Virus record (IMG/VR): IMGVR_UViG_3300028840_002770
Span: 1-48,234 of that record
From: a virus
Length of the DNA stretch: 48,234 bases
Strand: one strand, 5' to 3'
Numbering within the stretch: the stretch's first letter is position 1; every line of letters starts with the position of its first letter. This document shows, piece by piece, positions 8,256 to 37,772 of this stretch. Position numbers and translations under genes: made by a program. The notes under the pieces were generated by a model, which did not search any database, had not been told where the DNA came from, and saw only the letters and a program-made list of their open reading frames with translations.

Positions 8256-9904
8256 TGAAAATATGGGCATGTGAAGAAAACTATATTGTCGGATACTTAG
8301 ACCAGGTCCACAATATAACGGCCGACGCGGAACGCATAGCTGAACAACTATCGGCGAAGGAACAATTCGCCGCGCCTAGATCCATCATTCAGATAGACGA
8401 CGACAGCGCGACGATCAAGATTGTCGGCGCGTTGTCGAAGGACGGGCCGCCGCCGTTGGCGCGCTTGTTTGGATTTGACGGAACAGCCTATTCACAGATA
8501 ATTGACGCGCTTGACGTCGCAGCGCGAACGGATAAGGTCAAAACCGTTCGCCTTGTCATGGATACGCCAGGCGGCGCGGTGAATGGCGTCGAAGAAGTCC
8601 GACAGGCTGTCGCAGACCTGGCGATGAAAAAACACGTTATCGCTGAAAATCACGGCATGATCGCGAGCGCGGGTTATTGGATCGCAAGCGCGGCGTCGGA
8701 AATTCGCGCGATTTCGCCAACGGTTGAAAGCGGTTCAATCGGTGTTGTAATTACTCAAATTGATACGTCAGAACGCGAAAAGGCGTTTGGGATCAAAAAA
8801 GTCAATGTCATTTCGCGGAACGCGCCTGAAAAGGCGCCTGACGCGGATACCAAAGCAGGTCGCGAAACGATACAACAGCGCGCGGACGCAATCGAACGGA
8901 TCTTCATTAATAGGGTCGCAGACGGTCGCGGCGTCACCGAACAAAAAGTGATCAAAGATTTCGGTCGCGGCGCGTTGCTAGTCGCGAAAGATCCGGACGA
9001 AAACCGCGCGGACGCGCTGTCGGTTGGCATGATAGACAGCGTCAACGGATCGATATTCGGAAGAATTGAAGAAACCGTCGGCGAACCGACAGCGTCGGCA
9101 AGTGTTCAAGAGACCATAACAGCGGGCGCGACGCCGTTCGCAGATCTTCCGATAGTTGACAAACCATGGGATTCGGGCGCGGCACAGACGCGCGTCAGGC
9201 GCGCGACAGGGTCGACAGAAAAACCGGGCGCGAATTACAAGAAAGCGTTTTTTTGGTACGACGCCGAAAACGCCGAAAACTTCGGCGCCTATAAGCTTCC
9301 GTTTGCGGATATCGTCGACGGACGCATGGTTGCCATTCGCCGCGGCGTTTTTGCCGCAAACGGCGCCATGAAGGGCGCCCGCGGCGGCGTTCAGATACCA
9401 AGCGCCGACAAACCAAAAGTTCAAGCGGTTATAGATCGCTATATAAAAAAGATAGAACGCGAAGACAAAAAAACTGCAAACCAACCCGCTGGCGCGGGAA
9501 AACAAATGGAGGAAAAAATGAATTTGCAGGATGCGATCAACGAGTCGCCAGATCTCGCCAGCGAGGTTGAAGCGATCAAAAACGAAGCGTTCGCGGAAGG
9601 CGCAAAAAAGGCCGAAGCGACGATCAAGGCGGCGATTCCTTATCTGGCGGGATCTGACTATCCCGAATCGATCAAGAAAATCGCCTGCGACGTTTTGAAG
9701 GGCGACATGGAACCGGCGGTTTTGACCGGCGCTGTTATTGCGTTCGACGCCTTAAAGGAGGAGAGGAACGCGAAGGCCGCGCAAGACGAACAACCGGACG
9801 AAACGCCCGCGCAGCTTGAAACCGAAACCATTTCCGAAGACGGAACCGTTTCAAACGAAGCGGAAGTTCAGGCGGCGATTGACGCCTTGAAAGGAGTGAA
9901 ATAA
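8255..9904 (+). CDS. Prohead protease (S49/SppA-type, lambda gpC-like) with C-terminal scaffold
   Basis: The 549-residue protein carries an S49 signal-peptidase-like protease domain (about residues 40-260): MDTPGGAVNG near 102-111, the catalytic-serine segment MIASAGYWIAS with Ser138, and ESGSIGVV near 158-165. A second domain (about 300-400), with phrases such as KKAFFWYDAENA and YKLPFADIVDG, resembles segments attached to other phage prohead proteases. The C-terminal 128 residues, acidic and helical, equal a scaffold. In lambda, gpC cuts itself and the scaffold during head maturation. A strong internal ribosome-binding site and ATG start the scaffold separately at 9518. It overlaps the upstream 55-codon gene by one base. 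Confidence 0.9.
   Translation: MKIWACEENYIVGYLDQVHNITADAERIAEQLSAKEQFAAPRSIIQIDDDSATIKIVGALSKDGPPPLARLFGFDGTAYSQIIDALDVAARTDKVKTVRLVMDTPGGAVNGVEEVRQAVADLAMKKHVIAENHGMIASAGYWIASAASEIRAISPTVESGSIGVVITQIDTSEREKAFGIKKVNVISRNAPEKAPDADTKAGRETIQQRADAIERIFINRVADGRGVTEQKVIKDFGRGALLVAKDPDENRADALSVGMIDSVNGSIFGRIEETVGEPTASASVQETITAGATPFADLPIVDKPWDSGAAQTRVRRATGSTEKPGANYKKAFFWYDAENAENFGAYKLPFADIVDGRMVAIRRGVFAANGAMKGARGGVQIPSADKPKVQAVIDRYIKKIEREDKKTANQPAGAGKQMEEKMNLQDAINESPDLASEVEAIKNEAFAEGAKKAEATIKAAIPYLAGSDYPESIKKIACDVLKGDMEPAVLTGAVIAFDALKEERNAKAAQDEQPDETPAQLETETISEDGTVSNEAEVQAAIDALKGVK
9518..9904 (+). CDS. Nested scaffold protein (internal in-frame start)
   Basis: An ATG at 9518 in the same frame as the protease is preceded by TGGAGG at 9507-9512, a strong and well-spaced ribosome-binding site in the middle of an open frame. 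The 128-residue product (MNLQDAINESPDLASEV...) is acidic, helical and Glu/Ala/Lys-rich, as scaffolds are. This mirrors the lambda C/Nu3 arrangement, in which the scaffold is made from inside the protease gene in the same frame. An excess of free scaffold over protease would be expected. A second ATG candidate lies six bases on either side, but this one has the best spacing. Confidence 0.8.
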   Translation: MNLQDAINESPDLASEVEAIKNEAFAEGAKKAEATIKAAIPYLAGSDYPESIKKIACDVLKGDMEPAVLTGAVIAFDALKEERNAKAAQDEQPDETPAQLETETISEDGTVSNEAEVQAAIDALKGVK

Positions 9905-10357: not shown

Positions 10358-11575
10358 ATGGCTGACTATCAGACCAACCCACTTTCCGTCGATTTGTATT
10401 CGCGCATTATGGCGAACGCCTTCGACGAAAAAAGCGTGATCGGCGTTCCGACTGCGTTTCAATGCTTCTTCGGACGGCCGGAAACAAATTCACAAACAAT
10501 CTATTCGCCAAACGCGAACGCTGTCGATATCGACATTATTCGCGCAAACGAACGAATCGCCGCGCTTGTACCGCGCGGGACAAACGGTCGGTTCATTACC
10601 GCGCCGCAGGAAAACACACTGTCACAGCGTTTCACGAATATCAACCGGGTTTTTCCGTTGGTAGTCGAAGAAGGCGACATTGAAGCTTCACAGCTTTTGA
10701 ATCGCCTTGCCGGTGAAAATCCATACGAACGGCGGGCGCGACGGGAACGTTTGCGCGCGCTTGCGCTTCGTGAGCACCAGGAACAGGTTCGCCGGACCGT
10801 CCGTCTGTTTGAAGTCCTGGCGGCGCAGTCCGTTCTTGAAGGCAAGATGGACGCGATTCTTGGAACCGCCGACCCGGATCAACAGTACGATTTTTTAAGG
10901 AATAGCGCGCATTTTGTGACGCTGATCACACAATGGTCGAACGCCGCGGCTGACGCACTAGGCGACATTGACGATTGTTGGGATCTGATTCGCGAGAATG
11001 CTCACGTTTCCGCGGATATGGCGGTTTTCGGCGAAGGCGCGTTTGAAGCGTTTCTGAAGAATACAGACCTTATCGCGAAGGCCGACAACCGGCGATTTGA
11101 GCTGATCCTTGTCTCTCAGGAAATGCCGGTTCCGTCGCGTTATTCCCGCTTTATCGAGGCCGGAATGACTGCGCGTGGGCGCCTTCTGACGCCGCGCGGA
11201 CACGAAATCTGGATGTTCACTTATTCGGACGTTTACACGAACAGCGCAGGAACCGCGACCAAATACATGCCGAACGCGAAGGTTTTGGTTTGTTATTCCG
11301 GCGCCCGCGCTGATCGTTACTTCGGACCGCCCGAATTGCTTCCGGATATTCCGGCCCGGCGGACCTTTTATCAACAACTTTTCGGTTTCGACGTTTCAAT
11401 GCCGAACATGCCGCCGAATATCAATGGCGGCGGAATGACTGTTGAACCTGGAATGTTCTTTTTTGACGCTTACGCGCCGGAATCATGGCAACGCGTTACC
11501 GCGCGCATGCAGGCCGCGCCGATTTTCGCGACGACGCAGACAGACGCGTTCGCCGTCATTCTGAACGCGGTCTGA
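10358..11575 (+). CDS. Major capsid protein, lambda gpE family
   Basis: The 405-residue protein belongs to the phage major capsid protein E family (HK97 fold). Typical features are the N-terminal region with PTAFQCFFGR, the central helix around RRTVRLFEVLAAQSVLEGK, and the C-terminal EMFFFDAYAPESWQ-like segment (here GMFFFDAYAPESWQ). A strong AGGGAGG at 10343-10349 precedes the ATG, fitting high expression. It follows the decoration gene as in lambda. Confidence 0.92.
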   Translation: MADYQTNPLSVDLYSRIMANAFDEKSVIGVPTAFQCFFGRPETNSQTIYSPNANAVDIDIIRANERIAALVPRGTNGRFITAPQENTLSQRFTNINRVFPLVVEEGDIEASQLLNRLAGENPYERRARRERLRALALREHQEQVRRTVRLFEVLAAQSVLEGKMDAILGTADPDQQYDFLRNSAHFVTLITQWSNAAADALGDIDDCWDLIRENAHVSADMAVFGEGAFEAFLKNTDLIAKADNRRFELILVSQEMPVPSRYSRFIEAGMTARGRLLTPRGHEIWMFTYSDVYTNSAGTATKYMPNAKVLVCYSGARADRYFGPPELLPDIPARRTFYQQLFGFDVSMPNMPPNINGGGMTVEPGMFFFDAYAPESWQRVTARMQAAPIFATTQTDAFAVILNAV

Positions 11576-11577
11576 TC

Positions 11578-11838
11578 GTGTTTATTTGGAACGGACCGGG
11601 CATTTTGAAGGGAACCGGCGTCAAGTACAAACCAGGCGACGAAGTTCCTGAAGACGTCGTTCCCGACGAAATGCTTGAAGCAATGAAGGCGGACGGACGG
11701 ATTTCCGATCCTGACGCAAAACCGAGACCGGCCGCGAAACCGACGAAGTCGAAGACAAGCGCGGCGGTTCAAAAAACGACAAAGGCGGGACCGAAACCGC
11801 CTAAGTCGAAAAAGAAAAAGAAGGCTGACAATGGCTAA
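11578..11838 (+). CDS. Small lysine-rich protein after capsid gene
   Basis: The 86-residue product starts at GTG 11578, two bases after the capsid stop (TGATCGTG). An upstream ATG at 11485 would overlap the capsid gene by 91 bases and is not favoured. The N-terminal half (VKYKPGDEVPEDVVPDEM) is a compact motif seen in small phage head genes. The C-terminal half is Lys/Pro/Ala-rich and probably disordered. Function is unknown; a head or connector accessory role fits the location. Confidence 0.65.
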   Translation: MFIWNGPGILKGTGVKYKPGDEVPEDVVPDEMLEAMKADGRISDPDAKPRPAAKPTKSKTSAAVQKTTKAGPKPPKSKKKKKADNG

Positions 11839-15818: not shown

Positions 15819-17776
15819 TGCCCGATTTCGTTGTCAGGACGACGTTCAAAGCGAACGATAGGGTCACACCGGCCTTCAAACGCATGTCGAAGGGCGCGGA
15901 CCGCTTCGGACGCAAGTCGCAAGGCGCGTTTCGCATGGCCTCAAAATCGGCGCTTGGTTTCAAGTCTATCGTCGGCGGAATTTTAACCGCCGGAATGATT
16001 TCAAGAACGTTTGGTTTACTTCAGGAAGGCGTTCGCAACGTCACGTCTGAATTTGTCGATTTTGACGACGCGATCACTTCCGCCGCCGCGAAGTTGAACG
16101 TTCAGCGCGGAACCGAACAGTTCAAGACGCTGGAAAAAACCGCGCGCGACATAGGCGCGACGACGGAATTTACAGCCGCGCAATCCGCGCGCGCAATCGA
16201 CGAACTAGTCAAGGCCGGGTTCAATCAAGAACAGGCAATGCTTGCGGCGGCGTCAACGACAGACCTAGCGACTATTGCGGCGATGGATCTAGCGGAATCG
16301 ACGGCAATCGGCGTCAAGGCTCTTAATTCGTTCAACCTGGCGGCGGAAGATCCCGAAGAACGTTTAAAAAATTTATCCCGAATTAATAACGTGTTTTCAA
16401 GAACCGTGAATTCAGCGTCGACGGACCTTCAGGGCCTTTTCGAAACCATGAAATTCGCGGGCGCAGTAGTGAACACCGCAGGCGGCGAACTGGAAGATTT
16501 CGCCACTTTAGCGGGCGCAGTGTCGCGGGCAAGCCTGGAAGGCACCCTTGCGGGAACGACAATGCGAATGATGTTTACTCAACTGGCGGCGCCGACGGCG
16601 AAGGGTGCGAAACAACTTCGCAAGATGCGCGTCAACGCAGTCGACCCGTTGACAAAGTCAATGCGAAAACCGATTGAAATTTTCACCGACTTCGCAAAGG
16701 CGACGGAAAAAATGACGGACGCGCAACGACTAGCGGCGATCAAAATGGTTTTCGGTCAGCGCGCGATTGTGGGCGTTTCAAAGGTTCTTGAACTAGGCGG
16801 CGAATGGCTAGAAGACTACAAAACAAAAACCATTGAATCAGGACGCACGGCGAAGGAAGTCGCTGACGATATGCGAACGTCCGTCGGAAATCGCTTGCGC
16901 GTTCTGAAGTCAACAGCGATTGAAACGGGTTTTAAATTCGTCGACGTATTCAAGGATCAAATTCCGGGCGCAATCGACCGGACGGTTGAAGCGTTGCGCG
17001 GAATTGACGTCAAAAAACTGTCGGACGACTTCCGAACGTTCAAAGACGAAACGGTTGTCGGCCTTAGAACCGATTTAGATTTTCTGAAGACAACCCTTGA
17101 CGATATGCGTCCGCTTTTCATAGGTCTAGGCGTCGCCGTTGCGGCACTTAGCGCGCCCGCCGTCCTTGCGGGAATCGCGAGCCTGAAGACGCTGTTCGGC
17201 GTTATGATGTGGGGAATGTCGGTTGCATTAAAACCGCTGTTTGTGTTTCTTGCGGCGAATCCGCTTGCAGTCTATATCGCGGCGTTTGCGGCGTGGGGTT
17301 CGGTCCTTCTGACGGTTGTCAAGAACTGGGAATTTTTGAAGGTGACGTTCCTTGAAGGCGTCGAACTGGTCAGGACGGCAATCGAAGATCTTTTAATGGT
17401 GTTCATGAAGTTGGTCGCCGCAGGCGGACAGAAGGTCGCGGACTTTTTCGGAATCGACACGAAGGTTTTCAAAAATCTTAACAACCTAATGGACGACTTC
17501 AAGAAGAAACGCGACGCGGCGCGCTTCGGAAGTCATGCAGGCGTCCCCGGTCCGAAACATATGTTTGACGCCGACTATGACGAATTATTTCGCGAGCAAC
17601 TTCCCGTTTCCGGTCCGCGAACGGCGCCGAACGCGGGCGAAGTCGAAGGACGACAGCGACAAACGGAATTGATGCGCGGGAAACTTACAATCGCAGGCGC
17701 GCCGCCGGGTTCGGAATTCGAAGAAGAAATGTCGCGCCCGCGCGTCGGTGTTGAAATGCTAGGCGTGAACCCATGA
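15818..17776 (+). CDS. Tail tape measure protein
   Basis: The 652-residue protein has the TP901-type tape measure core in its N-terminal half (about residues 85-350), with the diagnostic GATTEFTAAQSARAIDELVKAGF, then TMKFAGAVVNTAGGELEDFATLAG-like phrases. A long hydrophobic stretch (about residues 430-500) is probably inserted in the host inner membrane during DNA injection. The C-terminus is charged. The ATG overlaps the frameshift-product stop by one base, and GGAGG at 15803-15807 precedes it. Its modest length predicts a fairly short tail. Confidence 0.92.
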   Translation: MPDFVVRTTFKANDRVTPAFKRMSKGADRFGRKSQGAFRMASKSALGFKSIVGGILTAGMISRTFGLLQEGVRNVTSEFVDFDDAITSAAAKLNVQRGTEQFKTLEKTARDIGATTEFTAAQSARAIDELVKAGFNQEQAMLAAASTTDLATIAAMDLAESTAIGVKALNSFNLAAEDPEERLKNLSRINNVFSRTVNSASTDLQGLFETMKFAGAVVNTAGGELEDFATLAGAVSRASLEGTLAGTTMRMMFTQLAAPTAKGAKQLRKMRVNAVDPLTKSMRKPIEIFTDFAKATEKMTDAQRLAAIKMVFGQRAIVGVSKVLELGGEWLEDYKTKTIESGRTAKEVADDMRTSVGNRLRVLKSTAIETGFKFVDVFKDQIPGAIDRTVEALRGIDVKKLSDDFRTFKDETVVGLRTDLDFLKTTLDDMRPLFIGLGVAVAALSAPAVLAGIASLKTLFGVMMWGMSVALKPLFVFLAANPLAVYIAAFAAWGSVLLTVVKNWEFLKVTFLEGVELVRTAIEDLLMVFMKLVAAGGQKVADFFGIDTKVFKNLNNLMDDFKKKRDAARFGSHAGVPGPKHMFDADYDELFREQLPVSGPRTAPNAGEVEGRQRQTELMRGKLTIAGAPPGSEFEEEMSRPRVGVEMLGVNP

Positions 17777-26812: not shown

Positions 26813-28255
26813 ATGAAAGACTATTCAACAATTGCCAATACACAAGGCGCGTTTCCGGACGTCACGAGTAAGGATTCAACCGGACCGTCGTCAACGGACG
26901 GGACGCCGATTCAAAAGGTTCTAGTTGACGATCTTTGGGGTGCGTCGCAAGCGTTAATGAAAGACGCGGGATTCAGTCCAAGCGGCGACAGCGAAGCGTC
27001 TGACGCGTCGCAACGGTTGAACGCCCTTCGTCGGTTGTTCGCCGGGCAGACAATTTCACCGCGCGCGACAAACGAACAAGTCGCGACCGGGTTGTTTTCC
27101 GCGTCCGGCGACGGCGCGCCGATTTCGCACCCTTGGAGCGCTGGAAATCAGATTTTTCTGGGTGCGACGGCGCAGCTTGAAGGATTGGAAGTCGGATTTG
27201 ACGACGCAGGAAATCGACTTCTGTTGATACTTGAAGCTACAAACAATCGAATTCACAAATACGACCCTGAAGATCTGACCGCCGAAATCGACAATTCCGG
27301 TTCTCTTTTAGCGGCCGGGTTTCCGGCGGGAACCTGGAAACCGACAAGTTTTTGTTCTGACGGGGTTTACGTTTACGTGACCTTTACCGATACGGCATTG
27401 TCGCCGAATCAACCGTCGCGCGTCTGTTGTTATCGAATTTCAGATTATTCGGTTCGGTCAGGTTGGAGTTCCGCCGGAACGCTTTTAACGGGAACGGGTT
27501 CGCTAAATAATTCAATGATGATAGTCGCGGACGACGATCACATTGTAGTAAAAAAGGACTACTTAACAACCGGCGGCGCGGGCGTCCTGGCGTTACTACT
27601 TAGAACCGACGGAACGCTTGTCGCCGAAGGCGACGGCGACGCACCCGGCGGACTAAGTCCTTCAAGCGGTCCAATGGGCGGAATCGCGTCGAACGGGTCA
27701 GTGATAGTTTTCAGCGCGAAATCGGGGACAATTTATTATTGTGCCGCTTCGATTCCGGGTTTGGGAGATCCGGGTTTCACAACGACGCCGAAAATCATTA
27801 CCGGCGACGTCGGCCCGATTATATGCGACGGCGATCTGTTTTGGGTATTCAGCCCGACGCCGACGTCTTCGCTTCGTGTTTTCGACCCGGTCGCGGACAG
27901 TTCAATTGCGTTCAATTCACCGAAGGTCAGCGCTGCGGTCGCTTGTTTTGACGGGACAAACGCTTGGTTGTGTAGTTTGGAACCGACGCAGGCGGGCGCG
28001 GATCAATATGTCGGTTGTTCGCGGTTTCCACTTCGCGAATTTCCAGGCGACTATGACACCGGGAACGCGGTCTTCAACCCTGATCCCTACATGACGTCAT
28101 TTACGAATCCGTCAGAACTGGGAAGCTACGCGTTTCAACAGGACATCGGTCGAATGAAATTTGACGGTCGCGACGTTTGGGCAATTGTCCGGCGAGACCC
28201 CTCAGAAACCGGTTCCGGATACGTTCGCCGGATACCTCACGCGATGCTGGTCTAA
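26813..28255 (+). CDS. Putative tail fibre/receptor-binding protein (beta-propeller-like)
   Basis: The 480-residue protein begins with a short N-terminal attachment region (residues 1-95, NTQGAFPDVTSKDSTGPSSTDGT). The rest has repeated beta segments with phrases such as SFCSDGVYVYVTF, GIASNGSVIVFSAKSGTIYY, PIICDGDLFWVFS and AVACFDGTNAWLCS. These recur every 45-60 residues and look like blades of a beta-propeller. The position after gp48 matches the tail fibre gene of Mu-type phages. Receptor binding is an inference. Confidence 0.7.
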   Translation: MKDYSTIANTQGAFPDVTSKDSTGPSSTDGTPIQKVLVDDLWGASQALMKDAGFSPSGDSEASDASQRLNALRRLFAGQTISPRATNEQVATGLFSASGDGAPISHPWSAGNQIFLGATAQLEGLEVGFDDAGNRLLLILEATNNRIHKYDPEDLTAEIDNSGSLLAAGFPAGTWKPTSFCSDGVYVYVTFTDTALSPNQPSRVCCYRISDYSVRSGWSSAGTLLTGTGSLNNSMMIVADDDHIVVKKDYLTTGGAGVLALLLRTDGTLVAEGDGDAPGGLSPSSGPMGGIASNGSVIVFSAKSGTIYYCAASIPGLGDPGFTTTPKIITGDVGPIICDGDLFWVFSPTPTSSLRVFDPVADSSIAFNSPKVSAAVACFDGTNAWLCSLEPTQAGADQYVGCSRFPLREFPGDYDTGNAVFNPDPYMTSFTNPSELGSYAFQQDIGRMKFDGRDVWAIVRRDPSETGSGYVRRIPHAMLV

Positions 28256-28256
28256 T

Positions 28257-28751
28257 ATGCGATTTTACGTTGCAATCGCCCTTTTACTTGCATCATTGCC
28301 GGTTTGGGCGACCGAAACCGACGCGGTTCGCGCCTATATTGATCACAACAAGCAAGACGTCCGCCCTTCAAAACGCGCGTCTGCGCTGGAATTGGTCAAT
28401 CCGATAATTACAATATCAGCGGAAAACAAGGTTGATCCCATGCTGACCGCCGTCATGATCCAATTTGAATCCAGTTTTCGACCCGGCGTCGTCGGCAAAA
28501 AGGGCGAACTTGGATTGATGCAGGTTCACGGCATAGCGTTAAAAGGCCGCAGGTTGACGTCTGTCGCCGACGAAATCAGACACGGCGTCGAATACCTGTC
28601 GGCATGCCTTCGGCGCTGTCCGTCGATTCTGGAAGCGATAAACCGATATATGTCGGGCAAGTGCCGACCGGTTTTGACCCGGCCGCGCGCCAGGTGGCGA
28701 CATTATCAATGGGCAATCAATAAATTCAAAGGCGAACGACATGAAAAATAA
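28257..28751 (+). CDS. Secreted lytic transglycosylase (SLT family)
   Basis: The 164-residue protein starts at ATG 28257, two bases after the fibre stop. It has a signal peptide (MRFYVAIALLLASLPVWA, cleavage after about residue 18). The SLT motifs are the catalytic Glu71 in IQFESSF, GELGLMQVHG near residues 82-91, and a C-terminal SILEAINRYMSGK (in place of the usual AYN-G). It should cleave the glycan chain of peptidoglycan from the periplasm, either as the endolysin or as a virion-linked lysin. The next gene is a membrane protein, which suggests a lysis cassette. Confidence 0.88.
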   Translation: MRFYVAIALLLASLPVWATETDAVRAYIDHNKQDVRPSKRASALELVNPIITISAENKVDPMLTAVMIQFESSFRPGVVGKKGELGLMQVHGIALKGRRLTSVADEIRHGVEYLSACLRRCPSILEAINRYMSGKCRPVLTRPRARWRHYQWAINKFKGERHEK

Positions 28752-29178
28752 TTCAAAATCGACCTTTTCGCGTTCTGTTCAGTGGGTTTCGTCCACAATG
28801 AAAAATATCCTATTTATTGGTGGTTGTTTGCTTGCGGGTTTTTCTTTCATTTTAGGTATGAAATACTATGACAAGGAAGACGTCGACCAACGAATTGAAC
28901 AATCGCGTCAGACGATAATAGATCGCGGCGGGAAGCGGTTTAATCGACTGAAGGACAACGTCAAGGAAAATTCCGAAGCGATTCAAGGCGTCAAAAAAAC
29001 CGTTGGCGAAATTCAATCGGTTCAACATAAAGCCTTCGCTCGCGACGAAGCGAAACGAGTCACTTCAAGCATTCGTGACCGGCGCAAGCGTGAAAAGCTT
29101 TATGATTGGTTGGTTGACAGAAACCTTCGGCGCTTGAAGCGCGGAAAAGATCCTTGCGCGAACGCGGATTGTGATTAA
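28741..29178 (+). CDS. Membrane-anchored coiled-coil protein (possible spanin-like)
   Basis: The 145-residue protein has one transmembrane segment (about residues 18-42, ILFIGGCLLAGFSFILGM) followed by a long charged helical region (about residues 45-130) and two cysteines at the C-terminus (CANADCD). An N-in inner-membrane topology with a periplasmic coiled coil is typical of i-spanins. It overlaps the transglycosylase by 11 bases. A second spanin-like pair exists in the leftward block, so the role here is uncertain. Confidence 0.68.
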   Translation: MKNNSKSTFSRSVQWVSSTMKNILFIGGCLLAGFSFILGMKYYDKEDVDQRIEQSRQTIIDRGGKRFNRLKDNVKENSEAIQGVKKTVGEIQSVQHKAFARDEAKRVTSSIRDRRKREKLYDWLVDRNLRRLKRGKDPCANADCD

Positions 29179-29519
29179 TGCGCGAAGGTCAGAAAATTCG
29201 CGAAATTCTGAAGGACTTACCTTCCGACACGCGTCTTTTTCGGATCAACGCGGGCGTCGGTTGGCAAGGTGAAACCGTCCGGCGCGAAGGAAATATTCTT
29301 ATCCTTAAAAATCCGCGACCGTTGCGCGCCGCACCGAAGGGTTGGTCAGATCTGGTCGGTTGGCGCGCGGTTGAAATAACGAACGAAATGGTCGGAATGA
29401 CAATCGCGCAGGTCGTCGCAAAGGAAATCAAGATGTCCGGCAAGGTCGACCCGGCGCAACAGGCGTTTGGAGATCTGGTCGTTTCTATGGGTGGAATTTT
29501 TGAAGTCGTTCGTCAGTAG
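29178..29519 (+). CDS. VRR-NUC-like nuclease
   Basis: The 113-residue protein has the pattern of the phage VRR-NUC branch of PD-(D/E)xK nucleases: a beta-hairpin with INAGVGWQG, then GWSDLVGW (metal-binding Asp58), and AKEIKM (Glu83, Lys85), followed by QQAFGDLVVSMGGIFEVV. It could act in recombination or resolve branched DNA. It is the last gene of the rightward block. Before the IS66 insertion its stop codon overlapped the stop codon of the opposing caspase-like gene (29513-29515). It overlaps the preceding stop by one base. Confidence 0.8.
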   Translation: MREGQKIREILKDLPSDTRLFRINAGVGWQGETVRREGNILILKNPRPLRAAPKGWSDLVGWRAVEITNEMVGMTIAQVVAKEIKMSGKVDPAQQAFGDLVVSMGGIFEVVRQ

Positions 29520-29545: not shown

Positions 29546-29553
29546 TGAAATTT
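29546..29553. repeat. IS66 target-site duplication, left copy
   Basis: The 8 bases tgaaattt directly before the left IS end are repeated exactly at 32079-32086 after the right end. Eight bases is the normal duplication length for the IS66 family. Confidence 0.95.
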
Positions 29554-29609
29554 GTAACCGTCCGAGATACCCCGTGGCGTGCACCGGCGAGGAGGATCGC
29601 GGGCCGGAG

Positions 29610-31202
29610 CTACTCGTTTTGAATTTCGGCGTCGCCGGGGGACTCGGGCGGCGGCGGTCGTTCCCAGTTGTGGGGCAAAAGCTCGTCGATTCGTGCCTGC
29701 GGATGGTTCTGGACCTGGATCAGGACGTGGGTGAGGTATTCCTGCGGGTTGACGTCGTTGGCCACGCAGGTGGCGACGAGGGTTTGTAGGACGGCGAGGT
29801 TCTGCCCGGCCACATCGTGCCCGACGAAGAGATAATTCTTCCTGCCCAGCGCGATGAGCCGTAGCTGCCTTTCCGAAATGTTGTTGTCCATCGCGATGTT
29901 CGGGTCGGTGAGGAACAGCTCCAGGGCGTCGTAGTTCCCGAGGAAGTAGCCGATGGCCTTGGCGATGGGGCCCTTGGGGAGATGATTCGGTTCTTCTTCT
30001 TCGAGACGTTCCTTCAGGTCCTCCAGGATCGGCTTGCTCCTGACCTGCCTCATGGCGAGGTGTTTATCCGTGCCGAGGATCTTCTCATCGGCGGCGTCGT
30101 ATTCCACGATGTACAGCTCGATAATTTGATCGAGGACATGGTCGACCAGGTCGGGTGCCTTGTCACGGGCCTCGTAGAACTTGCGCCGGGCGTGGCCCAT
30201 GCAGCCGGCCCGGTCCCGCTTTTCCGGGGTGGTCACCTGGTTGTAGCCGGAGTATTGGTCCACCTGGAGGATCCCTTTGGAGTCGCCGAGGATTTTCACG
30301 GGCGTCTCGCCCGAGCGGCTGGGGCTGAAAGCGTACGCCACGAACGGCCCGGCGATGAAGGTCCACATCCACGCTTCGCGACACTTGTCTTTTTCCTGCA
30401 CCTTGATTCTGGTCTCGTCGGCGTTGATGTATTTTTCCGTGGGGACCAGCTCGACAATCCGGTTGTAGAGCGGCACGAGCAGCTCGGCCGAGCGATGGAA
30501 AATGTCGCAGATGGTGCTTCTGGCCATGGGGATGCCCGTCCGCTCGAACTGCTTGCCCAGCCGGTAGAACGGGATGCTGTCCAGGCACTTCGACACCACG
30601 GCGTAAGCGTGCATGCCCGGCCCGTAGATAACACCCTCGCTCACGCGGACAGGCGGCGGGCCGGTCAAAACGTGCTGACCACAGGTGCAGGCTTTCTTCT
30701 CGCGGCGGTGAACGATTTTCTTGAAATGGGCCGGGACAAATTCATACTCGACCGACTCCTCCCATCCCAAAAACGAGTACTTATCGCCTCCACAAAAAGG
30801 ACATTTACAAGCGTCGTCCGGGACCTTGTGCTCTTTTTCTTCCTGAGGCAGATTCTTCTTGGCGGCGGCGTTCTTCTTCCGTTTTTGCCGGGCCCGCTCT
30901 TTGTCCTTGGCGGCCTTGGACTCGTCTTTTTTGCGGCGCTTCTTAACTGCCCGGTCCACCGAAACGATCTTCTCGCTCTTTTTGCCGAACAGCATCTGCT
31001 CGAGCTGACGGATCCGGTCATCCTTCAGCTCGATGGTTTGATTTAACTGCTCAATGGTGCGAGTCAGTTTGTCGATGCTTTTCGTTTGGTGATCGATCGT
31101 TTCCTGGCTGCGTTTCACCATTTCGACGAGCTGCTCCAGCATCGCCCGCATGGCGACCACGTCGGACATTTTACTCTCGTCTTTCAGGAAATCGTCTACC
31201 AT
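29610..31202 (-). CDS. tnpC: IS66 transposase TnpC
   Basis: The 530-residue DDE transposase has an N-terminal leucine-rich coiled coil (about residues 10-75), a Lys/Arg-rich stretch (75-125), a zinc-binding region with CPFCGG and CTCGQH (about 135-180), and the catalytic domain: first Asp in INADETRIKV, second in LQVDQYSGYN, and Glu in the NNISERQLR segment. The C-terminal extension is typical of the IS66 Orf C domain. It joins DNA ends in the transposition reaction. The frame is intact. Several large opposite-strand frames here are shadows caused by high GC content. Confidence 0.96.
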   Translation of the reverse strand: MVDDFLKDESKMSDVVAMRAMLEQLVEMVKRSQETIDHQTKSIDKLTRTIEQLNQTIELKDDRIRQLEQMLFGKKSEKIVSVDRAVKKRRKKDESKAAKDKERARQKRKKNAAAKKNLPQEEKEHKVPDDACKCPFCGGDKYSFLGWEESVEYEFVPAHFKKIVHRREKKACTCGQHVLTGPPPVRVSEGVIYGPGMHAYAVVSKCLDSIPFYRLGKQFERTGIPMARSTICDIFHRSAELLVPLYNRIVELVPTEKYINADETRIKVQEKDKCREAWMWTFIAGPFVAYAFSPSRSGETPVKILGDSKGILQVDQYSGYNQVTTPEKRDRAGCMGHARRKFYEARDKAPDLVDHVLDQIIELYIVEYDAADEKILGTDKHLAMRQVRSKPILEDLKERLEEEEPNHLPKGPIAKAIGYFLGNYDALELFLTDPNIAMDNNISERQLRLIALGRKNYLFVGHDVAGQNLAVLQTLVATCVANDVNPQEYLTHVLIQVQNHPQARIDELLPHNWERPPPPESPGDAEIQNE

Positions 31203-31245
31203 CGATAATGGTAGATCACATTTGGAAAAGCTTGTCGATCCATAA

Positions 31246-31656
31246 TCAGCCCGCGATCACTTCACGATCCGATCCAGTTGCGTTTTTTTGGTGTATCAGC
31301 CCTCTTATCGGCGGATCCCAGCGTTTCGGTCGTCTCACTTTGCTGTAATCGATCCCCTCCAACAGCATCGACAGCTCACCGGAGTCCATCGGCACCGACT
31401 TGATGTCTTCTTCAATCCGGGGAAGCCGAAACCGGCCCTTTTCGAGCCGTTTATACCAAAGCGTCAAACCACCGCGGTCCCAGGCCAGGATTTTCACCCG
31501 GTCACGTCGTCTCGAAACAAACACGAACAGATGACCGCTGAACAGGTCAGCCCCAAGCTCGTTTACGACCAGCGCGGCCAGACCGTCGTGTCCTTTCCTC
31601 ATGTCGGTCGGTGCGGTGAACAGAAAGATCTTCACCGACGGGGGGAGTGTCAGCAT
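31246..31656 (-). CDS. tnpB: IS66 accessory protein TnpB
   Basis: The 136-residue protein has the IS66 Orf2 signature: LFTAPTDMRKGHDGLAALV, HLFVFVSRRRDRVKILAWDRGGLTLWYKRLEKGRF. It is needed for transposition of IS66 elements, though its mechanism is not known. It overlaps tnpA by seven bases. The C-terminal tail is slightly longer than the usual 115-120 residues. Confidence 0.95.
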   Translation of the reverse strand: MLTLPPSVKIFLFTAPTDMRKGHDGLAALVVNELGADLFSGHLFVFVSRRRDRVKILAWDRGGLTLWYKRLEKGRFRLPRIEEDIKSVPMDSGELSMLLEGIDYSKVRRPKRWDPPIRGLIHQKNATGSDREVIAG

Positions 31657-31994
31657 AAAGCCTCTTTGGTGAAGGCCGCCACCAACGAGGCAATATATCC
31701 AGGGCTCGGCAGCGACTCGAACCGCAACGTTACGCCACGACCGATCATCATCTGTAGCCCGCCGTCGGCGGCGTTGCTTTCTTCCAAAACAGGATCTCTC
31801 ACCACCTCGACAAACCTCGCGCTCGCCGTCTGCTCAAGGCGATTTCCAGGTTTCATCTTATGCATCCAGTATTGCAGGGCCGACACGGTCACGTTATTTG
31901 CCGCCGCAAACTTGGCTCGGGTAAGCCCGCTCTCCTTGTATTGCGCAACCAACCTCGCCCCGTCGGACGCACTCCGCCGCTTCGATTTTGACAT
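31650..31994 (-). CDS. tnpA: IS66 accessory protein TnpA (HTH)
   Basis: The 114-residue protein has an N-terminal helix-turn-helix (about residues 12-40, YKESGLTRAKFAAANNVTVS) as in IS66 Orf1 proteins, thought to bind the element ends. ATG 31994 is chosen because GGAGGAG precedes it; an upstream in-frame ATG at 32012 lacks a ribosome-binding site. It is the first gene of the element, 84 bases from the right end. Confidence 0.93.
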   Translation of the reverse strand: MSKSKRRSASDGARLVAQYKESGLTRAKFAAANNVTVSALQYWMHKMKPGNRLEQTASARFVEVVRDPVLEESNAADGGLQMMIGRGVTLRFESLPSPGYIASLVAAFTKEALC

Positions 31995-32050
31995 CGTCTC
32001 CTCCTTCTTCAATTTTAGGGAAATTAGAAGAACAGACTACGCCGCCGCTT

Positions 32051-32767
32051 TCAATACGGGGTCATCCGGACGGTTACTGAAATTTCATAGTCTTGCAATG
32101 TTGGAAATTCAAACCTGAAGTCGGTCAACAACGCGCGTCGCCAGGACTTCCAAAGTTTTGTCTTTGGCTGAATAAGCCACTGACCGCCCGGAACGTCAAA
32201 TTCGTCTTCAAAAATCGGTTCAGTCAGGAACCGGACGACAAACGGGTTTCGGGTTGTATGACCTGCGGTTAAATGCGCGTCAATCCAACCGCCGCGAAAC
32301 CCCTGTTTCAACATTTCGTCGCGCAGGACGTCGGCAAACCCGCCGTTCGTTCCCGGTCCGATTTTCTTCGCCTTGACTTGCTTCGTCGCGCTGGCGGTCG
32401 AACAGGCATAAAGAACGATCTTGACGTCGCGCCGACAACAGGTCTTCAGAACGTTGACGAATTCGTCAGCGCTGTTTTTTCCATAACCAATCTGAAGTCC
32501 GTTTGACCAACCATGACAGAAAATCGCCAATAAATCGGCCTTTTTCCCGCGACTGTGAATCGCTGCGAATTTTTCAACTTCAAGACGTCGCCGGAACGGT
32601 TTTTGTCTGACGCAATCCAGCGCGAGAATGTTCGCGGCCGGTGCGTCGGAACACAACGCGAATTCTTTCGCTTCCGGAATGAACGCGCCGCTCGCGTCAT
32701 GTTTTCCGAAATGATTCACGGAACCGTGAATGATTAAGGTTTTGAAATTGTTTTCTGCGTTGCTCAT
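32051..32767 (-). CDS. Caspase-like (clan CD/CHAT-like) protein, C-terminus altered by IS66
   Basis: The 238-residue protein starts at ATG 32767 after AAGGAG (complement of 32773-32778). Two hydrophobic strands end in likely catalytic residues: LLAIFCHGWSNG with His85-Gly, and VKIVLYACSTAS with Cys122. This order and the A-C-S context match clan CD cysteine peptidases (caspases, CHAT: His-Gly, then xxx-A-C-x). A third conserved-looking block is AGHTTRNPF near residue 175. Residues 231-238 (VTVRMTPY) are encoded by IS66. Without the IS the frame continues ten codons (RHLDFYSEHY) to a stop at 29513-29515. The ATG overlaps the upstream stop (ATGA). Substrate and role are unknown. Confidence 0.75.
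   Translation of the reverse strand: MSNAENNFKTLIIHGSVNHFGKHDASGAFIPEAKEFALCSDAPAANILALDCVRQKPFRRRLEVEKFAAIHSRGKKADLLAIFCHGWSNGLQIGYGKNSADEFVNVLKTCCRRDVKIVLYACSTASATKQVKAKKIGPGTNGGFADVLRDEMLKQGFRGGWIDAHLTAGHTTRNPFVVRFLTEPIFEDEFDVPGGQWLIQPKTKLWKSWRRALLTDFRFEFPTLQDYEISVTVRMTPY
32079..32086. repeat. IS66 target-site duplication, right copy
   Basis: The bases tgaaattt match the left copy at 29546-29553 exactly. This copy lies in the coding sequence of the caspase-like gene, at the codons for the segment YEIS. Confidence 0.95.
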
Positions 32768-32958
32768 CGTTTCTCCTTTTCGTAAACGTACATTCCAGAC
32801 CGAAACAACCGAACAAGCGTGTCGCCTTGCAAGTGCATTATAACGGCGGCGGGTCGCGGGTTGCGCCATGGGTAAAATTCAGGGACGACAACCGATCTTT
32901 TCGTTCTTCTCAGAATGTCCAACTGTTCTAAATTAAAAACCCTTGCCCCCTTCGTCAT
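32764..32958 (-). CDS. Small protein of unknown function, coupled to caspase-like gene
   Basis: The 64-residue protein starts at ATG 32958 after AAAGGAG (complement of 32964-32970); an in-frame codon at 32997 lies inside the helicase gene and is less likely. It is basic, with PEFYPWRNPRPAAVIMHLQGDTLVRL. It overlaps the helicase stop by four bases and the caspase-like ATG by four, so all three should be made together. If the caspase-like protein is toxic, this would be a candidate partner or regulator, but no evidence in the sequence shows this. Confidence 0.7.
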   Translation of the reverse strand: MTKGARVFNLEQLDILRRTKRSVVVPEFYPWRNPRPAAVIMHLQGDTLVRLFRSGMYVYEKEKR

Positions 32959-34457
32959 TGTGTCTCCTTTAGTTTTTTTGACGCAAACCACGCCCACCCC
33001 GGACGATATCCCTTGATCCTTGCGATTTCATATAAAAGCGTTTGATTGACCATTTTCTTCGGTTGACCTTCCGAATCGACGTTCAAGCGGTGATAAACCC
33101 ATAATTCGCGGCGACCTAGTTCCTTCGCAATGTCTAGCAGGTCAGCGACGGCGCCGCGATCAACAGCCGAATTGATCCGGTCGACATATTCGCGGCGTTC
33201 TTCAGGCTCGCGATCTGCGATTTTGACCGGTCCGGTCACTTCGACCAGGCGTCCGTCGACTTCCTTCAGGTCGCGACGTTGGCCTTTGTCGCGGACGGTT
33301 CCGCAGTTGTCGCACCGCGACCCGGTGAAATATAGAAAACACGCCGGACACAATTTCAAGGAATCGACTGCGTCGCCTTTTGGTTTTCCGCGCTTTTCGC
33401 GCCCGCGAAATTGCCATTCATGCGCCGTCAATGGGTGGCCATGTTCGCGAAGGTTGTTCACATGGTCAAGAATGACACAAGTCTTTTTTCCCTTCCAAGG
33501 GCGCAACCCGCGACCGACCATTTGCGAAAACAGCGCGCGGGACAACGTCGGTCGAAGCATGATAATACACGACACGCGCGGGACATCTAAACCATAGGTT
33601 ATCAGGTCGCAGGAAGTCAGACCTTGAATTTTCCCTTCGCGAAGCGCATCGATCAGCATGGCGCGCCGCTTGTAAGTCATGCGACCGTCGATATTTTCAA
33701 ACCGATATCCGGCGTCGTTGAACCGTTGCGCGGTTATTCCTGCGGCCTTGACTGACCGGCAATAGACCAAACAAGGAAGTCCGTCGGCGTGCTTTCGATA
33801 GTGTTCAATCGCTTTTCCGAATACCTGTCGGCGTTCTAATAGTTCCTGAAGTTCCGTTTGATCATATTCTGTCCCGCGTCGATGGAGTGTTTCGATTCCT
33901 TCTATCGGCGGGCAGAAATAACGGACGCCGGTCAGATAATTTCCGGCGACCAGGTCCGCGACCGACGGTCCTTGAATTAATGTCTGATACACTTCCGACA
34001 GTCCGCGTCCGTCAAGGCGTTCAGGCGTCGCGGTAACGCCTAGAATTTTCGCCTTCGGAAACCGCTGAACAATTTCCTTCTGTCGCTCAATATAAAGGTG
34101 AACTTCGTCAAAAATAATGAAGTCAGGCGCGCGCTTGATCTTTTCGTACCTGCGGATCAATGTGTCCTTCGACACGACATGAACTTGAAACGCCTTCGAT
34201 TCCGAATTGCCAACGGCGATCAATCCATGCTTGACGCCTAAATTTTTCAACTGCGCGCTTGATTGCTTCAACAGTTCATTTCTTGAAACGATGATCCAGG
34301 CGCGGTTATTTCGTTCGACTGCGGCTTTTGTCATCATTGAAAAAAGGATCGTCTTTCCTGAACCGGTCGGCATTTGAACACAAACGGATCGGTTCGCGCG
34401 GAACGCTTCGCGCGTCGCCTGGAAGACTTCTTCCTGATACGGTCGAAGGCTAGGCAT
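32955..34457 (-). CDS. DEAH-box helicase (superfamily 2) with C-terminal zinc ribbon
   Basis: The 500-residue protein has Walker A MPTGSGKT (residues 29-36), Walker B FDEVH (about 116-120), motif III VTATPERL (about 138-145), and helicase C-terminal motifs including LVYCRSVKAAG, SCDLITYGLDVPRV and QMVGRGLRPW. A zinc ribbon follows (CPACF...CDNCG, about 380-400). It resembles SSL2/RecQ-like phage helicases that unwind DNA during replication or recombination. Its neighbours (primase-like ATPase, RecT, exonuclease) support this. It overlaps its upstream gene by eight bases and the downstream gene by four. Confidence 0.93.
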   Translation of the reverse strand: MPSLRPYQEEVFQATREAFRANRSVCVQMPTGSGKTILFSMMTKAAVERNNRAWIIVSRNELLKQSSAQLKNLGVKHGLIAVGNSESKAFQVHVVSKDTLIRRYEKIKRAPDFIIFDEVHLYIERQKEIVQRFPKAKILGVTATPERLDGRGLSEVYQTLIQGPSVADLVAGNYLTGVRYFCPPIEGIETLHRRGTEYDQTELQELLERRQVFGKAIEHYRKHADGLPCLVYCRSVKAAGITAQRFNDAGYRFENIDGRMTYKRRAMLIDALREGKIQGLTSCDLITYGLDVPRVSCIIMLRPTLSRALFSQMVGRGLRPWKGKKTCVILDHVNNLREHGHPLTAHEWQFRGREKRGKPKGDAVDSLKLCPACFLYFTGSRCDNCGTVRDKGQRRDLKEVDGRLVEVTGPVKIADREPEERREYVDRINSAVDRGAVADLLDIAKELGRRELWVYHRLNVDSEGQPKKMVNQTLLYEIARIKGYRPGWAWFASKKLKETQ

Positions 34458-34662: not shown

Positions 34663-34910
34663 GCCTGCGGCCTTCCAAGGTTTGAAACGTCCGCTTCAAG
34701 CTTCATTTCGATAATCGCCGCCAGTGACGAAACAAGCATGTTCAGGATCGAAAGGTTCGCGGACATTTTCAAAAAAATGTCGTCAGGATTCGCGTCAGGT
34801 CCGGCGACGTTCTTGATCATATCGTCGGACAGTCGTTTTATTTCTTCGCGAATCGCGAACGCGCGTTTGTTTATTTCGGTTTCCTGCGCCGTCATTTTCG
34901 TTTCGTTCAT
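34659..34910 (-). CDS. Small helical protein of unknown function
   Basis: The 83-residue protein starts at ATG 34910 after GGAGG (complement of 34918-34922). The ATG overlaps the upstream ATPase stop (ATGA). The sequence is almost entirely helical, with INKRAFAIREEIKRLSDDMI and a hydrophobic helix ILNMLVSSLAAIIEMKL. The function is not recognised. Confidence 0.65.
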   Translation of the reverse strand: MNETKMTAQETEINKRAFAIREEIKRLSDDMIKNVAGPDANPDDIFLKMSANLSILNMLVSSLAAIIEMKLEADVSNLGRPQA

Positions 34911-36583
34911 TTTTCGACCTCCAAACAACCCTTTAGGATTGTGCAAACCGTCGTTCTTCCTGCGATAAGACACCGTTTATTCTTTTCAACTAGTCCGTCG
35001 TGTCGTTGCAACTGTCTGTGATAACCGCTTGTCCTTTCGATTATCTGTTTTATCTTGTGGTGATTGTTCGCAATCGCAAGAAACCCGTCGGTCGTCACGC
35101 CGACGCCGTATTGTCCCGCTAGGTTGCGAAGATAAACGCGGCCGTCGTGCGGAATGACTGTCCCGTCATATTCTTCGCAATATACGGTCGCGAGCATCTG
35201 ACCAAGCGTCATAGGTTGGCGAAGTTGGTTATCTAAACCAATCGGAATTTCACAACGGACCGATTCGGACAAAATCCGGTCGACCATATCAAGCGTTTCG
35301 TCGCGCCCGCTTTCAATCGGTTGCATTTCGTACAATTGCCGGACGCCTAGAACGGCCTCTTCTTCCAAGGGTTGAACATTGCGCCAGATCAACCAATAGG
35401 CGGACAATAACAACCCTTCGGCATAGGAAAACCGATTATCGCGCCCGGTTTCGCCGCGAATGATCGGTTCAAGGTATTCAGCATAACGCAAAATTTCAGG
35501 AAGCTTTTTCCAGGTCAGCGACCGAATCGCGGCGCAGTTCTTCGGCGTCGTCAGGTTTGAAATATTGGAAGACAGTTCGCGCCAAAGGGATTTTTGGTCT
35601 TCTGTCGGTTTTGTCATTTCAACGCGGAAGATCCGGTTTTCGTCTGCGACGTTTCCAACCGTCGGATCGATTGCGACAAACAGAAACATATTGTTCATTC
35701 TGAATATCTGCGCGCGCCCTTCCTTCGTTCCCTTCGCGATAATCGGCGCGTCGTCACTGGTCGACATTCGCATTAATGAAAACAGATCTTCGGTCGTTTG
35801 TTTTTTCTTTTTCGTGTCCTTTTCGGATTCTTCGATCACAATCGCGCAAGAATCGTTCGCGATTGCCTGACGGATCGCCGCTTCGGTTGTTCCGCCGGAA
35901 AACGCCGACGGAAGCGCGATCTTCCTGACGATATAGTTCACGATTGTCGATTTTCCGCTTTTACTAGGTCCGGTTATCAGTCCGCAGGGTCGCCATTGAA
36001 GCGCGCCGGCAAACGGCGCCAGGGCCGTCCAACCCATGATCCGAACCTTGTCAGCCTGCGACGAAAACGACAATTTCGACACGTTGTCGACGATTGCCTG
36101 ACATAGTTCAGGTTTTGCGGGTTCGTTGTTCAAACCGATATCGACGCGCGTTTTTCTCAAATATAGGCGGTTTGGATTCTTTTCGCCTATTGTGAATTGA
36201 CCGTCGTGATAACAGATCCGGCCGTCGCATTCCCGCCATGCGCCGCGACCGCGAACAAAAGACGGGTCGAAGTCGGAATTCAGCGCGGCGTCCATTATGA
36301 ACGAAGTCGAATTATCCCATTTCATACGACCGTCAATCGCGAAGTTGTCGTTCCACCAATCGACCGGCGCAAGCGTCAAAAGGAACCCTTTTCCGAATCG
36401 CTTCGGAAGTTCCGATTGTAAACGGTTGTGAATGCCTACAAAATACGCCTGACCGTCGTCGCCTAGACCTAGAATTCTGAACGGCGTCTTCGCTGGCGGG
36501 TTAGGCGGCGGCGACGGCGCTTTTTTGCGCTTCTTTTTCTTCTTCTTCGGCTGTCGGTCGTCTGCGAACGGGTCGGTTTTCAT
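34907..36583 (-). CDS. Primase/helicase-type ATPase (D5/DUF927-like)
   Basis: The 558-residue protein has an N-terminal poly-Lys/Pro linker (residues 10-32), a beta-rich domain with LGLGDDGQAYFVGIHNRL (36-70), and a C-terminal ATPase with Walker A GPSKSGKST (205-213), a Walker B-like AIVIEESEKD (about 248-257), and sensor-type residues in FLFVAIDPTVGNVADENRIFRV. This is the architecture of D5-like helicases linked to DUF927. No primase domain is clear. It probably unwinds DNA at the phage origin. The ATG at 36583 overlaps the upstream gene by four bases. Confidence 0.82.
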   Translation of the reverse strand: MKTDPFADDRQPKKKKKKRKKAPSPPPNPPAKTPFRILGLGDDGQAYFVGIHNRLQSELPKRFGKGFLLTLAPVDWWNDNFAIDGRMKWDNSTSFIMDAALNSDFDPSFVRGRGAWRECDGRICYHDGQFTIGEKNPNRLYLRKTRVDIGLNNEPAKPELCQAIVDNVSKLSFSSQADKVRIMGWTALAPFAGALQWRPCGLITGPSKSGKSTIVNYIVRKIALPSAFSGGTTEAAIRQAIANDSCAIVIEESEKDTKKKKQTTEDLFSLMRMSTSDDAPIIAKGTKEGRAQIFRMNNMFLFVAIDPTVGNVADENRIFRVEMTKPTEDQKSLWRELSSNISNLTTPKNCAAIRSLTWKKLPEILRYAEYLEPIIRGETGRDNRFSYAEGLLLSAYWLIWRNVQPLEEEAVLGVRQLYEMQPIESGRDETLDMVDRILSESVRCEIPIGLDNQLRQPMTLGQMLATVYCEEYDGTVIPHDGRVYLRNLAGQYGVGVTTDGFLAIANNHHKIKQIIERTSGYHRQLQRHDGLVEKNKRCLIAGRTTVCTILKGCLEVEK

Positions 36584-36882
36584 TTCGCAAGTTCCGTTTC
36601 CATTAAATCAGAACCGATTTTCAATGAATTTATTATGTCGATATCTGCGGTTTCAATGTCAAGAAAGCCAATCGGCAACGGTTCCGGCATGGCATAGCAT
36701 ACAAGGCCGAAACACGGCGCCTGGCGCCGTTCGACCATGCCAAGGGCGGCGCAGTATAAAGAACAGTTGTCGCGCTTGTTAGGGCATGTCAGGACGACCA
36801 CAACGTCAGGTTTGACAAGTCGCTTCAATTCGCCCGCTGGACCTATAAAAACCAATTGATGTTTTTTGCCTGTCTTCGGCAT
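36580..36882 (-). CDS. Cysteine-rich small protein
   Basis: The 100-residue protein contains five cysteines in the middle (LTCPNKRDNCSLYC, then PCFGLVC), perhaps a metal-binding site, preceded by a hydrophobic strand (PDVVVVL). It starts at ATG 36882, where it overlaps the RecT stop (TGATG). Function is unknown; the place between RecT and the ATPase suggests a DNA-metabolism role. Confidence 0.65.
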   Translation of the reverse strand: MPKTGKKHQLVFIGPAGELKRLVKPDVVVVLTCPNKRDNCSLYCAALGMVERRQAPCFGLVCYAMPEPLPIGFLDIETADIDIINSLKIGSDLMETELAK

Positions 36883-37772
36883 CAGAAAAGGTCGCCCGCT
36901 TTTTTGCCGGACTTGTCCGCTGGATGTTTTGCAAGCGGTTTGTCCGCTGGCGGTTCTTCCTGAATTGCTTTTCGTTCTTCGTCCGCTTCAACTTCCGCGT
37001 CGGTGCGTTCCGCTTCCAGGTCGGCGGCGACGTCTTCGGACGAAAACCCCTTGTCGGACACAACGTCGACAACCTGCGCGGCGGCCTCTTCCCGGTCGTC
37101 TGCAATAACCGCGCGCTGAACTTCCTTCGATATGTACAGGTTGCGAAGAAGGGCCTTGATAACCGTTTTTAATGCCATGCCCGAAAAACTTTTGTTCCAT
37201 GCTGAACCGGGTTTCGTTGACCGGGCGTAGGATTTCGCATGTTCGACGACTTCTTGCGCCGACATATATTTCAAATTTGTTTTCCCGTTCGACATTTCAA
37301 CGGCCGCGTAATATCCGATCTCGTTTCCGCGATTGGTCAGCGCGATTTCGTGAACGTATTCGTCGCCGCGAACGGACTTTGTCAACTTGAATTTGTCGTT
37401 TTCAAATACAACATCGGCGGTTATCCCTTCAACCTGCGACGATTCAAGCGCAAGGCGGATCAACCCGTTTTTCATTATCTGATAATTGGCGACGTGTTTT
37501 CCGTCCTTCTTGTAGGCAATGATCGCCGCTTCCTGAAATTGCGGGTTCAGCGACAGACCAGTTGACGCGCCGCGCTTCAAGGCGTTGTAAAGTGAATTCT
37601 GTCCCGCTTCGGATTTTAAGCAATCCTGAAGTTCGCGCGATTCGCTGATCATAAGATACGCCGACCGGACGAATTCGCCGTTTTCGTATTCAGACGAAAC
37701 CAACTTCTGAAGCGGTTCCTTCTTCGTTTCTAAATATTTGACAATACTATTTTCGTTTATTTTTTCGGACAT
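36882..37772 (-). CDS. RecT-family single-strand annealing protein
   Basis: The 296-residue protein has the RecT core: ALKRGASTGLSLNPQFQEAAIIAYKK (about residues 65-92), NYQIMKNGLIRLALES, AKSYARSTKPGSAWNKSFSGMALKTVIKALLRN (about 180-215), and a disordered acidic/lysine-rich C-tail (about 240-296). It should pair single strands exposed by the adjacent YqaJ-type exonuclease in phage recombination. AAAGGAG (complement of 37777-37783) precedes the ATG at 37772. Confidence 0.93.
   Translation of the reverse strand: MSEKINENSIVKYLETKKEPLQKLVSSEYENGEFVRSAYLMISESRELQDCLKSEAGQNSLYNALKRGASTGLSLNPQFQEAAIIAYKKDGKHVANYQIMKNGLIRLALESSQVEGITADVVFENDKFKLTKSVRGDEYVHEIALTNRGNEIGYYAAVEMSNGKTNLKYMSAQEVVEHAKSYARSTKPGSAWNKSFSGMALKTVIKALLRNLYISKEVQRAVIADDREEAAAQVVDVVSDKGFSSEDVAADLEAERTDAEVEADEERKAIQEEPPADKPLAKHPADKSGKKAGDLF

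Follow-up and report, generated by a model that had tools for sequence, protein, structure and literature searches.

Introduction

CHAT and caspase-like proteins of bacteria are established as defence effectors, and DUF4347 is a domain that occurs in large proteins of cyanobacteria and proteobacteria. Clan CD cysteine peptidases (MEROPS) have an alpha/beta/alpha fold and cleave site-specifically, as dictated by the P1 residue. In these enzymes, strands 3 and 4 carry the catalytic His and Cys at their C-terminal ends, short beta turns occur in the loop that follows strand 3, and the loop after strand 5 (L5) is part of the S1 pocket, where in gingipain R an aspartate on helix 1 serves a basic residue (PMC4357240). 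Clostripain carries the motif -His-Gly-(X)n-Ala-Cys (PMC12445089), and bacterial caspase-fold proteins such as TPR-CHAT act in antiviral defence (PMC9729208). A phage-encoded family of caspase-type fold was found neither in PHROGs or PADLOC nor in the literature searched, subscription papers being outside its scope. Here we describe what is apparently a new, phage-restricted family attached to this known enzyme clan.

A peptidase-like gene at the end of a phage operon

The window, which is the whole stretch of 48,234 nucleotides that was analysed, is a phage contig that encodes a terminase and a head maturation protease. The genes relevant to the locus are as follows.

8255 to 9904, plus strand: head maturation protease gene (phrog_53), separate from the peptidase-like gene
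28161 to 28751, plus strand: lytic transglycosylase (SLT) gene (Pfam SLT), convergent with the peptidase-like gene across an insertion sequence (IS)
32051 to 32767, minus strand: clan-CD-like cysteine peptidase gene, 238 aa with its ATG at 32767, assigned from translation, family alignment, AF2 model and hhalign to DUF4347
32764 to 32958, minus strand: 64-aa open reading frame (ORF) between the helicase and peptidase-like genes, with an ATGA overlap with both neighbours and no relative found
32955 to 34457, minus strand: superfamily II DNA helicase (Pfam ResIII/Helicase_C, phrog_16), in the same operon as the peptidase-like gene
34907 to 36583, minus strand: primase-like protein (phrog_35358), same operon
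36882 to 37772, minus strand: RecT-type annealing protein (Pfam RecT), same operon

The peptidase-like gene is the last of an operon transcribed from one strand, with genes for a YqaJ-type exonuclease, RecT, the primase-like protein and the superfamily II helicase upstream. Its start overlaps the stop of the 64-aa ORF as ATGA, the start of the 64-aa ORF overlaps the helicase stop in the same way, and an AAGGAG-type ribosome site precedes the starts of both small genes. The sequence-only reading had assigned the range 32051 to 32958 to a caspase/CHAT-like protein; the ORF is real, but the range spans two genes, the peptidase-like gene (32051 to 32767) and the 64-aa ORF (32764 to 32958). A toxin- or antitoxin-like role had also been considered for the 64-residue neighbour, which has no counterpart in the loci of any family relative. 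A toxin-antitoxin pair was rejected because a conserved small partner gene is absent across the family loci.

An IS66-type element at the 3' end

The 3' end of the peptidase-like gene is occupied by an insertion sequence.

29554 to 32077: IS66-type insertion sequence, recognized from its terminal inverted repeats, its ORFs and distant blastn matches to IS66 transposases
29610 to 31202, minus strand: TnpC, inside the element
31246 to 31656, minus strand: TnpB, inside the element
31650 to 32012, minus strand: TnpA, inside the element
29546 to 29553 (left copy) and 32078 to 32085 (right copy): target site duplication TGAAATTT

The element has 22-bp terminal repeats in addition to the 8-bp duplication, looks complete, and lies within the phage genome between the late and early operons; against plasmids its DNA has only short matches, which are 70 to 74% identical. 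A small plus-strand ORF (29178 to 29519) with a weak VRR-NUC match (E 0.031) is situated between the lysis-side genes and the element. When the flanks are joined in silico, the peptidase-like gene originally ended ...YEISRHLDFYSEHY and now ends ...YEISVTVRMTPY, such that the protein tail RHLDFYSEHY has been swapped for VTVRMTPY and only the last residues have changed. The junction falls beyond the last conserved column of the family alignment, and the insertion thus gives no sign of the selection for loss that had been proposed for it. Degradation of the gene by the element was likewise rejected, since the ending rebuilt from the flanks differs in the unconserved tail alone.

A family found in environmental phages

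The window protein has no significant match in Pfam, PHROGs, NCBIfam, PADLOC or PDB sequences, and its similarity to Pfam DUF4347 (E 0.1, 12.8 bits) is below the gathering score of 24.6. Searching with tblastn at E values up to 10 gave no match among 50,697 phage records and a single spurious match, with no family member, among 72,556 plasmids; a single-sequence back-translation search recovered no significant relative, and DNA patterns derived from HGW..Q.G plus YAC and from DAH..GH gave chance matches or none. The productive search used a degenerate DNA pattern for GHxTxNPxVxRF, which picked out 12 true relatives (tblastn E 1e-15 to 1e-47) among the IMG/VR contigs; in 84,980 species genomes of bacteria and archaea it gave chance matches alone and no relative. 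A profile-guided viral scan widened the family to 19 contigs plus contig L023, and a second such scan returned the identical 19 contigs. In all, 20 IMG/VR phage contigs besides the window carry relatives, and a profile search is positive in 21 of 21 family contigs, the window included. The same search found no member in 745 bacterial genomes (398 Pseudomonadota, 58 from the phylum of G006 and 289 from the phylum of G007), where the sole match is a DUF4347 domain within a 1428-aa frame. Helicase neighbourhoods of other phages also contain no relative of the peptidase-like gene.

A terminase large subunit gene near the family gene in two members and a baseplate gene in one identify the member contigs as phages. 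This hitherto unnamed family is, in the collections searched, confined to environmental phages and apparently phage-restricted. All 19 full-length members are single-domain proteins of about 209 to 251 aa, and relatives share about 29 to 41% identity with the window protein, which sits on a long branch of a deeply diverged maximum-likelihood tree. Close pairs within the family have dN/dS values of 0.23 to 0.27. At one locus (L137; G416, 30000 to 31700) an apparent frameshift interrupts the N-terminal third of the L051 family gene, reflecting either sequencing error or decay.

Conservation of the His-Cys dyad and a putative substrate loop

The two strand motifs noted from the sequence, LLAIFCHG with His85 and VKIVLYACS with Cys122, are present as described in the 238-aa reading. 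The positions discussed in this section are listed below.

32513 to 32515, minus strand: His85 codon of the peptidase-like gene
32402 to 32404, minus strand: Cys122 codon of the peptidase-like gene
32228 to 32281, minus strand: most conserved segment, DAHxTxGHTTRNPxVxRF (residues 163 to 180), defined by invariant columns and lying in the loop after strand 5

His85, Gly86 and Cys122 are kept in 19 of 19 full-length members, including the window protein, despite the low pairwise identity, and conservation of the dyad is therefore far beyond chance; homologues lacking the His or the Cys, which were to speak against the assignment, are not seen among these 19. The residue contexts, HG and (Y/F)(A/C/S)C, fit the clostripain motif (PMC12445089). 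Further invariant residues are D24, F29, F36, G94, G143, D146, R149, D150, H165, G169, H170, N174, P175, R179, G194, G195, L213 and R218. By predicted secondary structure, the DAHxTxGHTTRNPxVxRF segment is the counterpart of the S1-pocket loop of clan CD enzymes. By analogy with gingipain R, D24, which is invariant and lies where helix 1 begins, could suit a basic P1 residue; alternatively, R179 and H170 could suit an acidic one.

These patterns of conservation bear on whether the protein neutralizes host or rival-phage factors, acting in counter-defence or superinfection exclusion, for instance through cleavage of defence proteins or through substrate mimicry. The family is rare, deeply diverged and scattered at varying positions among unrelated phages, as is typical of arms-race genes, and the antiviral role of bacterial caspase-fold proteins such as TPR-CHAT (PMC9729208) adds to the appeal of this explanation. 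However, PADLOC models of anti-phage defence match none of the 18 members searched, the DAHxTxGHTTRNPxVxRF segment varies less than would be usual for an arms-race gene, and close pairs are under purifying selection. We regard a role of this kind as doubtful.

DUF4347 is the nearest known family

The family alignment was compared by hhalign in local mode with small alignments (4 to 12 sequences) for DUF4347, CHAT, C14, C25 and C11, a size that makes the negative results weaker than those of a search of a full database, and 60 column-permuted alignments served as controls for the DUF4347 comparison. DUF4347 (PF14252) aligns with a probability of 94.1% (E 1.2e-7) and with the His and Cys in register, whereas permuted controls reach at most 1.9%. 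CHAT (PF12770), also represented by a small alignment, gives 18.9% and a score of 31.1, where its permuted controls reach 18.6 at most; both residues are again in register. With similarly small alignments, Peptidase_C14 (PF00656) at 0.5% is no better than permuted, and gingipain C25 and clostripain C11, at 3.3% and 0.3%, are within the permuted controls; membership of C14, C25 and C11 was rejected on these grounds. A Pfam search with 11 members gives weak DUF4347 matches in seven (best 5.5e-4) and a CHAT match in one (8e-4). From the hhalign scores and these weak Pfam matches, and as judged by sequence comparison, the family is a separate one that has DUF4347 as its nearest relative and lies towards CHAT within the caspase-like fold. 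The proposal of a clan CD peptidase of CHAT or caspase type is partly supported: this is a clan-CD-like His-Cys phage protein, but its nearest family is DUF4347; of the families proposed for profile comparison, C14 and C25 show no similarity and CHAT only a weak one with the dyad in register.

The HG ... LxLG ... LLYGC pattern of DUF4347 aligns with HGW..GLQIG ... VLYAC of the phage protein. DUF4347 matches nevertheless occur mostly inside open frames of about 600 to 6400 aa, whereas the phage protein stands alone, adds the DAHxTxGHTTRNPxVxRF segment and does not reach the cut-off set by Pfam. CHAT proteins (TPR-CHAT of Craspase and SAVED-CHAT) share the register of the His and Cys and are a recurrent Foldseek match, but the profile score is weak and the phage family is without a fused TPR, SAVED or other sensor domain. 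With caspases and metacaspases (C14) the family shares the predicted order of strands and helices, with His and then Cys, but no profile similarity; with gingipain (C25) and clostripain (C11) it shares an HG plus AC type of motif and a clan-CD-like character, but no profile similarity above that of permuted controls. Head maturation proteases (phrog_53) and Prp-type enzymes (clan CR) are also phage encoded, although the head protease is a separate gene in the window and PHROGs has no family for the peptidase-like protein.

Predicted fold

AF2 models built with the family alignment have a pLDDT of 87 and pTM of 0.87 for the window protein, and a pLDDT of 91 and pTM of 0.90 for the member from contig L055. 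In both, the predicted chain begins strand1-helix1-strand2-helix2-strand3-[His]-short hairpin-helix3 and continues strand4-[Cys]-helix4-strand5-loop-helix5, an order that agrees with the one described for caspases (PMC4357240). An unrelated fold, which would have counted against a caspase-like protein, is therefore not what is predicted for either member.

In Foldseek, the window model has 36 clan CD proteins among its 50 highest-ranking PDB matches (our count), including caspases, SAVED-CHAT (probability 0.96), legumain and toxin cysteine protease domains. The best E value against the PDB is 9e-3 with TM-scores below 0.5, and neither the window nor the L055 model has a PDB match below E 0.001; for L055, NAD-binding Rossmann proteins (dehydrogenases) rank level with TPR-CHAT, C11 and caspases. 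Foldseek thus gives no more than moderate support to the clan CD assignment. Among viral proteins, the window model is closest in fold to BFVD A0A8S5P2H5 (E 9e-4) and A0A8S5MXG5 (E 2.5e-3), predicted phage proteins of which one is a fragment of a minor capsid protein and the other an uncharacterised protein from a myovirus; from their modelled similarity these are possible further clan-CD-like phage proteins.

The dehydrogenase-type matches of the L055 model, together with invariant polar residues beyond the dyad, raise the prospect of a non-proteolytic protein that shares only a Rossmann-like sandwich and uses the His, the Cys, His165, His170, Asn174 and Arg179 for other chemistry or for binding. 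We consider this distinctly improbable, as both catalytic residues are in register with the DUF4347 and CHAT profiles and are in canonical HG and AC contexts.

Gene neighbourhoods vary among phages

The family gene follows replication genes in the window and in contig L041, is found amid small early-type genes in L044 and L046, and follows tail-fibre-like genes in L043, L045, L051, L052 and L136. The sequence-only reading had placed it in a replication operon, and it does close such an operon in the window phage; a link to replication as such is not borne out, as relatives occupy other modules, several of them beside lysis genes or where tail-fibre and lysis genes meet. The position differs among phages, and position alone gives no target.

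An SLT transglycosylase gene is a convergent neighbour in the window, where two small ORFs and the insertion sequence separate the two genes, and in L045, L051 and L052; L041 has an SLT-like gene after the family gene on the same strand, with weaker similarity to the window SLT (37% identity over 78 residues). In L049 and L136 the family gene adjoins genes for small membrane proteins that look holin-like. These arrangements suggest an enzyme of the lysis module that would cleave a phage or host protein, such as a holin regulator or envelope protein, to time or complete lysis. However, L045, L051 and L052 have other genes in common and represent a single case rather than independent ones, neither Pfam nor PHROGs gives a convincing match for the holin-like proteins, and the replication and early-type settings described above are of a different kind. 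No signal peptide or membrane segment is evident by eye in the window protein, and a dedicated lysis role is unlikely overall. The neighbourhoods hint at lysis, but they are also compatible with accessory-gene sites at module ends.

Other genes of note are present in the member contigs. In L054, a 107.8-kb phage contig, a gene 6 bp downstream on the same strand (10631 to 11728, plus) codes for a GAF-GGDEF diguanylate cyclase (Pfam GGDEF 6.7e-43, GAF 1.7e-16), a phage-encoded c-di-GMP synthase. An IS607-like pair, consisting of an HTH/serine recombinase-like ORF and OrfB/TnpB, is located just upstream in L044 (2277 to 4048, plus) and is a second mobile element adjoining the family gene besides the IS66-type element of the window. 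L041 codes for two ORFs (16539 to 17703, plus) resembling by eye QueD and QueE of the 7-deazaguanine pathway, and DNA modification in this phage is possible.

Proposed function

We propose, with moderate confidence, that the family consists of accessory, site-specific cytoplasmic cysteine endopeptidases of the caspase-fold type that are specific to phages and likely cut a specific host protein during infection. What is observed is the conserved dyad, the similarity in sequence to DUF4347, the distribution among phages and the placement of the genes; the fold is predicted, and we infer protease activity, specificity and target. The protein would act as a single-domain, stand-alone enzyme of clan CD-like type, in which His85, after strand 3, would activate Cys122, after strand 4, and the DAHxTxGHTTRNPxVxRF loop after strand 5 would shape the substrate pocket. 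Strict conservation of this loop, even between unrelated phages, points to a single kind of cleavage site, and all members probably cleave after a similar residue. Cutting of a specific host protein, the most likely job, would serve host take-over, counter-defence or lysis control. Head maturation was set aside as unlikely, given the separate head protease gene of this phage and a family gene whose location is not tied to head genes.

Some observations point away from a protease, namely that Foldseek matches never fall below E 0.001, that Rossmann dehydrogenases rank level for L055 and that the C14, C25 and C11 profiles do not align; we also know of no demonstrated activity for DUF4347, which we count against the protease reading. 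A bolder version of the endopeptidase proposal, which we advance tentatively, is that the phage caspase-fold protease is an offensive tool, cleaving a conserved bacterial protein and thereby triggering or timing host death, or disarming caspase- or CHAT-type defences. If so, the fold of bacterial abortive immunity would have been turned against the host.

Phages may therefore possess their own form of a class of enzyme deployed against them by bacteria. A phage-restricted family in which the dyad and the putative substrate loop are strictly kept implies that unrelated phages act on targets of a common kind, and the family could yield a new site-specific protease. The target, once found, would reveal a new point of host take-over or a new form of counter-defence.
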